Of a stretch of DNA of 64,000 nucleotides, positions 16,892 through 17,033 are shown piece by piece. Origin of the DNA: Clostridia bacterium. GTDB taxonomy: Bacteria; Bacillota; Clostridia; UMGS1883. The stretch spans positions 124,001-188,000 of the forward strand of contig JAFUOO010000005.1 of NCBI GenBank assembly GCA_017472685.1, given 5' to 3'. A model generated the notes under the pieces. The model worked only from the letters and a program-made list of their open reading frames with translations. It had not been told where the DNA came from and ran no database searches. Each line of letters begins with the position of its first letter. Within the stretch, counting starts at the first letter, position 1. A program made the translations under genes and the position numbers.

Positions 16892-17033
16892 ATGCCTAAT
16901 GGCATGATTTGGCTTCGCCATGATATGTCTGTTGACATGATATGAACCTATGGTTCATGAAGGTAGAAACATCAAAGATTTGCATAGCAAATCTACCATA
17001 ATGCACGAAGTGCATATCATGTGCAAAGCGCAT
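16892..17033. repeat. Hairpin array inside the atp operon (atpB-atpE gap)
   Basis: Seven short perfect or near-perfect hairpins follow each other: ATGCC/GGCAT (16892-16905), TGGC/GCCA (16910-16920), ATGTC/GACAT (16925-16938), ATGAACC/GGTTCAT (16942-16958), AGATTTGC/GCAAATCT (16976-16994), ATGCAC/GTGCAT (17001-17015) and ATGTGC/GCGCAT (17019-17033). Most have the form ATG...CAT and are separated by GAT or ATC spacers, giving repeated GATATG and CATATC words. Loops are 3-4 bases. It shares stretches with the array at 55241-55442. An open frame through it has no RBS and is not a gene. Confidence 0.85.

Follow-up and report, generated by a model that had tools for sequence, protein, structure and literature searches.

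What is an array of seven hairpins doing between two genes of an ATP synthase operon? The question arises in the window analysed here, a stretch of 64,000 nucleotides from a Clostridia bacterium, where atpB (subunit a; 16146-16880, plus strand, an ORF of 244 residues that also served as the query for finding relatives) is followed by atpE (subunit c; 17091-17366, plus strand, with GGAGG at 17079-17083). A gap of 210 nt separates the atpB stop (16880) from the atpE ATG (17091) and the hairpins lie inside it. The original prediction had described them as ATG-n-CAT units with GAT/ATC spacers and had proposed either a device that raises atpE yield or a mobile palindromic repeat that is tolerated at the site. 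Our analysis favours, with a probability of about 0.83, a degenerate, MITE-like copy that has lost its ORF, belongs to a family of mobile elements of gut Clostridia and is tolerated between the genes. On this reading the array is a passenger of the genome and not a control switch made for ATP synthase.

All seven predicted hairpins were found. Four of them (16892-16905, 16910-16920, 16925-16938 and 16942-16958) make up a left arm on the plus strand (16892-16958), where they are spaced by GAT, while a truncated right arm on the same strand (17001-17033) holds hairpins 17001-17015 and 17019-17033 spaced by ATC. Both predicted spacers are present, each confined to its own half, but the central hairpin (16976-16994) has another form than ATG-n-CAT. 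The two arms form an inverted repeat around the centre (16962-16997), which is closed by the strands GGTAGA (16962-16967) and TCTACC (16992-16997). When the sequence was parsed alongside its sister copies, the whole element was observed to run from ATGATAT to CATATAAT (16887-17038), so that the predicted extent of 16892-17033 holds for the hairpins but not for the edges of the element. As a candidate target-site duplication we looked at TAAATTT, which occurs on both flanks of this copy in AT-rich sequence.

Chains of at least three spaced hairpins were observed three times in the window, compared with 0, 1, 0, 0 and 1 times in Markov shuffles; two of the three belong to a more complete copy of the array in the groES-groEL gap (55236-55449). 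The fold of the single atp copy is only modestly unusual (z = -2.06) and the strength of the array therefore lies in its recurrence. A genome-wide search for the spaced pattern, as the original prediction had suggested, found CATGATATG-N3-22-CATGATATG eleven times in the 2.3-Mb genome whereas the reversed control was not found, and sister copies of the array, in either orientation, are scattered over many unrelated loci. The claim of a non-random array is thus supported by the rarity of such chains in the shuffles and by the recurrence of the spaced word pattern. Another linker type (GCGATATG) was noticed after groEL (window 57151-57290), near a strong terminator-like hairpin at 57200-57232. 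We also noticed one hairpin pair that is present twice in the window, 1055 nt apart (39849-39930 and 40904-40985), and consists of TGATTATCC-ATTAAA-GGATAATCA and GAAATCCGT-GC-ACGGATTTC.

Two long copies were found to carry an intact ORF between their arms, namely L121 (G000:C8, also L074), in the same genome as the atp copy, and L136 (G001:C52, also L037). Both ORFs match PF05635, the S23/23S-rRNA-IVP family (E 3.6e-26 and 1.7e-25 respectively), and the element ORF also matches TIGR02436. The model of the IVP (pLDDT 93.4) has as its nearest structures 2rld (Z 19.1), 2gsc (Z 16.4) and Avd (Z 14.5). From these matches and the model fold, the product is an S23/23S-rRNA-IVP four-helix-bundle protein, and no other protein was found attached to the element. 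A complete element consists of a pair of inverted arms, each of which usually has 4-5 copies of a 6-7-nt word (here ATGATAT), a short and mostly perfect hairpin between successive words, and an IVP gene that is central or directly downstream. The atp copy has no PF05635 ORF. On direct reading, ATGGTAGATTTGC in its centre (minus strand, 16999-16987) repeats without a mismatch the 13 nt with which the L121 ORF begins, and the other side of the centre retains the stretch which follows the L121 stop. Since only these scars of both ORF ends are left, the atp copy reads as an internal-deletion derivative of the ORF-bearing element whose right arm was also truncated, and it is MITE-like in that it shares its ends with L121.

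Whether the repeat family had already been described was left undecided in the original prediction. Our search shows that the arm has a name, as Gut-1 (RF01706) was the only Rfam family that responded sensibly to the array. The atp copy scores 22.3 bits (E 0.09), which is under the curated gathering cut-off of 50 bits, and the groES-groEL copy scores 39.5 bits (E 2.5e-6); no Rfam match at the gathering threshold was found in the window and no group II intron RNA at the locus. Twenty-four Gut-1 matches were observed in the genome, three of them above the curated cut-off (55.6, 52.2 and 52.0 bits), and these three copies have other linker types than the atp copy. The matches often form facing pairs on opposite strands, from which it follows that the Rfam model covers a single arm of a longer inverted repeat. 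The open-access literature searched, preprints aside, yielded no report that connects IVP with Gut-1 or with heptamer repeats, and the novelty of the Gut-1/IVP link is therefore provisional. Two human faecal scaffolds, L261 and L262 (MT835590.1 and MT835815.1; unverified, deposited as phage), were seen to carry an IVP gene together with a Gut-1 match that exceeds the cut-off (65 and 59 bits), one of them beside a tRNA and its terminator.

The association between IVP genes and arrays was followed across the class, where 99 of 391 genomes, largely metagenome assemblies of which several are incomplete, have a PF05635 match at E <= 1e-8. The choice of loci rested in part on the score of PF05635 matches and not on the presence of an array. 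A hairpin array with repeated linkers was observed within 330 nt upstream of the IVP gene at 45 of 107 oriented loci, against 1/97 and 0/100 in the controls, and the arrays mostly have 4-5 words per arm. The words include GCTAAAT, (R)TGAAAT, ATGATAT, GTGRTAT, TGAATTG, ATGATGT and GTGAAGT. The hairpin ladder is missing at about half of the IVP loci, including the rRNA-type IVPs (L171-L191). Across 60 genomes, Gut-1 and IVP tend to be found together (Fisher p 0.0025), while some genomes, among them the incomplete G003 and G013, have Gut-1 matches without an IVP match.

We noticed that the word changes with the clade of the IVP and not with the host. On a tree of 102 IVPs, with eight word labels set by hand, 14 changes of word were counted against 49.4 when labels were shuffled (0 of 200 shuffles reached this), and nearly identical IVPs were found with the same word in different host families. 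As it has few columns and the shuffles ignore near-copies, the tree is evidence of word and IVP moving together and not of one selecting the other. Comparing L084, L100, L118 and L122, we observed a TGAAAT array beside a tRNA gene in three congeners, seemingly at one orthologous spot, which in this genome is taken by a different type of IVP gene.

The stems vary from copy to copy while their pairing is kept, as had been predicted. In nine GCTAAAT elements, folded with RNAalifold without a given structure, the first word pairs with the last and inner words pair with inner words around side hairpins, with double changes in 17 of 58 pairs; one such element gave a fold z of -6.25 as RNA and -6.03 as DNA. 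In the ATGATAT subfamily, pairing in H1, H3 and H4 beats all 500 arm shuffles and in H2 all but 18. Whole hairpins were also observed to be swapped between elements. In ATGATAT-type copies, no match between the arms was seen by eye for GAA/TTC variants of the word, and pairing of word with word is therefore without covariation support within this subfamily. Stems are perfect in 301 of 336 cases. The few mismatches, mostly common to homologous copies, are A-C 19 times and G-T 4 times when read in the orientation of the forward word. The loops are mostly 3 nt long and strongly TNC in the 5' arms, hence GNA in the mirror arms; nearest-neighbour energies, for either RNA or DNA, did not distinguish TNC from GNA loops and so do not account for this asymmetry.

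The array lies between two genes, has the sense of their transcript and is able to fold, which would suit a dedicated cis-acting mRNA element that acts on processing or stability at the atpB/atpE junction and so raises atpE yield. However, the array was found to be absent from this gap in fifteen related atp operons, with no Gut-1 match at any of the fifteen loci, equivalent copies lie beside unrelated genes in both orientations, and the atp copy is degenerate and truncated relative to its sisters. We consider such an element very improbable, and the yield-raising device of the original prediction finds no support in these comparisons, although the inserted copy may still affect atpE incidentally; its other proposal, the tolerated mobile repeat, agrees with sister copies throughout the genome and with the absence of the array at the site in relatives. 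The gap is short in one relative (L013), and in the closest (L026, 95% identity over 92 matched AtpB residues) it holds a different insert. Counting L026, inserts unrelated to the array were seen in the gap of three relatives (L014 3207-3540, L024 2030-2340 and L026 280-440), and the site therefore seems to tolerate insertions. Between groES and groEL the array is missing from two congeners, whose gaps measure about 80-90 nt, and the gaps of other members of the family are mostly 14-30 nt. In two congeners (L157 and L164) a different palindromic repeat (GGGAGCC...GGGAGCC, AGTCAGC/GCTGACT) was noticed at the place of the array.

Dispersed and imperfectly palindromic repeats whose loops are GNA in one orientation recall REP-like or IS200/IS605-type repeats, which would be moved as single-stranded DNA by a Y1 (HUH) transposase; the GNA loop is very stable in DNA. 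No Y1 transposase was found in G000 (89% complete, so that this absence is not absolute) or G011 (95%), both of which have arrays, and the gene attached to the element is that of the IVP, which makes this explanation about as improbable as the mRNA element. A movement by reverse transcription, in which the IVP would play the part of Avd, its relative in fold, and a reverse transcriptase would come from elsewhere in the genome, would agree with our preferred reading on the identity of the element and differ from it on movement. This is still unlikely, though it has the Avd-like fold (Z 14.5-14.6 to Avd and the DGR complex) in its favour, as well as the position of TGAAAT-type arms, which often start just behind intrinsic terminators (13 of 26 against 0.7%; the ATGATAT type does not). 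Group IIC introns also sit behind terminators. However, RVT_1 was not found in G002, G011 and G013 (the last of which is incomplete), and the reverse transcriptase of G000 (L153, C15:53217-53759, about 325 aa), which is retron-like by eye, lies on another contig than its five IVPs. A probable diversity-generating retroelement with an Avd-like ORF upstream of its reverse transcriptase was observed in G009 (L154, C99). Least probable of all is that Gut-1 is a free-standing noncoding RNA gene and the atp array its degenerate copy. The study that introduced Gut-1 (PMC2864571) listed it as a candidate noncoding RNA known from human gut sequence alone, and Rfam files it as 'Gene; sRNA', but its matches often face each other as the two arms of one inverted repeat, its copies are dispersed by the dozen and IVP genes are attached to them.

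If the atp array is a decayed mobile copy, as we favour, the element is mobile and is probably recognised by its IVP. The IVP would recognise the repeated words; according to the part of PMC4990558 that cites Lin 2006, a relative of solved structure forms a pentamer, a number that would fit the 4-5 words of each arm. Together with a host or partner enzyme, the IVP might then spread full and ORF-less copies. The insertion in the atp operon would be neutral or nearly so, tolerated because it sits behind one gene's stop codon and ahead of the next gene's ribosome-binding site. In mRNA the array would fold and, by analogy with rRNA IVSs, may be cut by RNase III. Such hairpin arrays should be read with caution and not as operon-specific regulation.

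The element resembles several known systems. It shares PF05635/TIGR02436 and inverted-repeat ends with the 23S rRNA IVSs that carry an S23/IVP ORF, for example in Coxiella, and are regarded as selfish (PMC4990558), but it is dispersed and intergenic, lying outside rRNA (the atp copy is intercistronic), and has arms of words and hairpins and many ORF-less copies. S23/IVP genes, which are known mainly as such selfish inserts, are thus also found in dispersed elements with a defined cis architecture. As in MITEs, short ORF-less copies share their ends with an ORF-bearing element, although the full element here encodes an IVP and not a known transposase. Avd of diversity-generating retroelements has the same four-helix fold (4dwl, Z 14.5) but only 13% identity, and the IVP of the element comes without an attached reverse transcriptase or a template/variable repeat. 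The Gut-1 RNA (Weinberg et al. 2010, PMC2864571) has three tandem hairpins with UGAAAU-like linkers, and the genome has matches to it above the curated cut-off; it models a single arm filed as sRNA, whereas here this arm is one of the two halves of an inverted repeat that goes with an IVP gene. An orphan Rfam RNA thereby gains a genomic context. Because word and IVP correspond across lineages, specificity is open to a direct test.

Cyanobacterial STRRs are repeated 7-nt words in intergenic DNA. Tandem repeats of period 7 were observed within 220 nt of 24 of the 62 IVP loci that have no ladder, against 0 of 62 for each of the periods 5, 6, 8, 9 and 10 and 1 of 167 distant windows. Of 17 loci with such repeats on both sides, 16 have them in inverted orientation, among them loci on Nostoc and Euhalothece plasmids. 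Heptamer repeats of the cyanobacterial type may therefore be tied to IVP proteins. The intergenic heptamers described without a known binder (TAACTGA; PMC4679880) are likewise 7-nt words, although hairpins separate the words in the element studied here, and the IVP is a candidate binding protein for such repeats. More tentatively, and at slightly less than even odds, we propose a new two-part class of mobile element in which an S23/IVP gene is joined to inverted arrays of lineage-specific words of about 7 nt, either tandem or laddered with hairpins. The IVP would bind the repeats, the unit would move between hosts and spawn ORF-less copies, and rRNA IVSs, Gut-1 and some heptamer repeats would be its branches. 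Individual cases of inverted 7-nt tandems at ladderless IVP genes were noticed at L263 and L264 (the Nostoc and Euhalothece plasmids) and at L132, L179, L193, L195 and L214.
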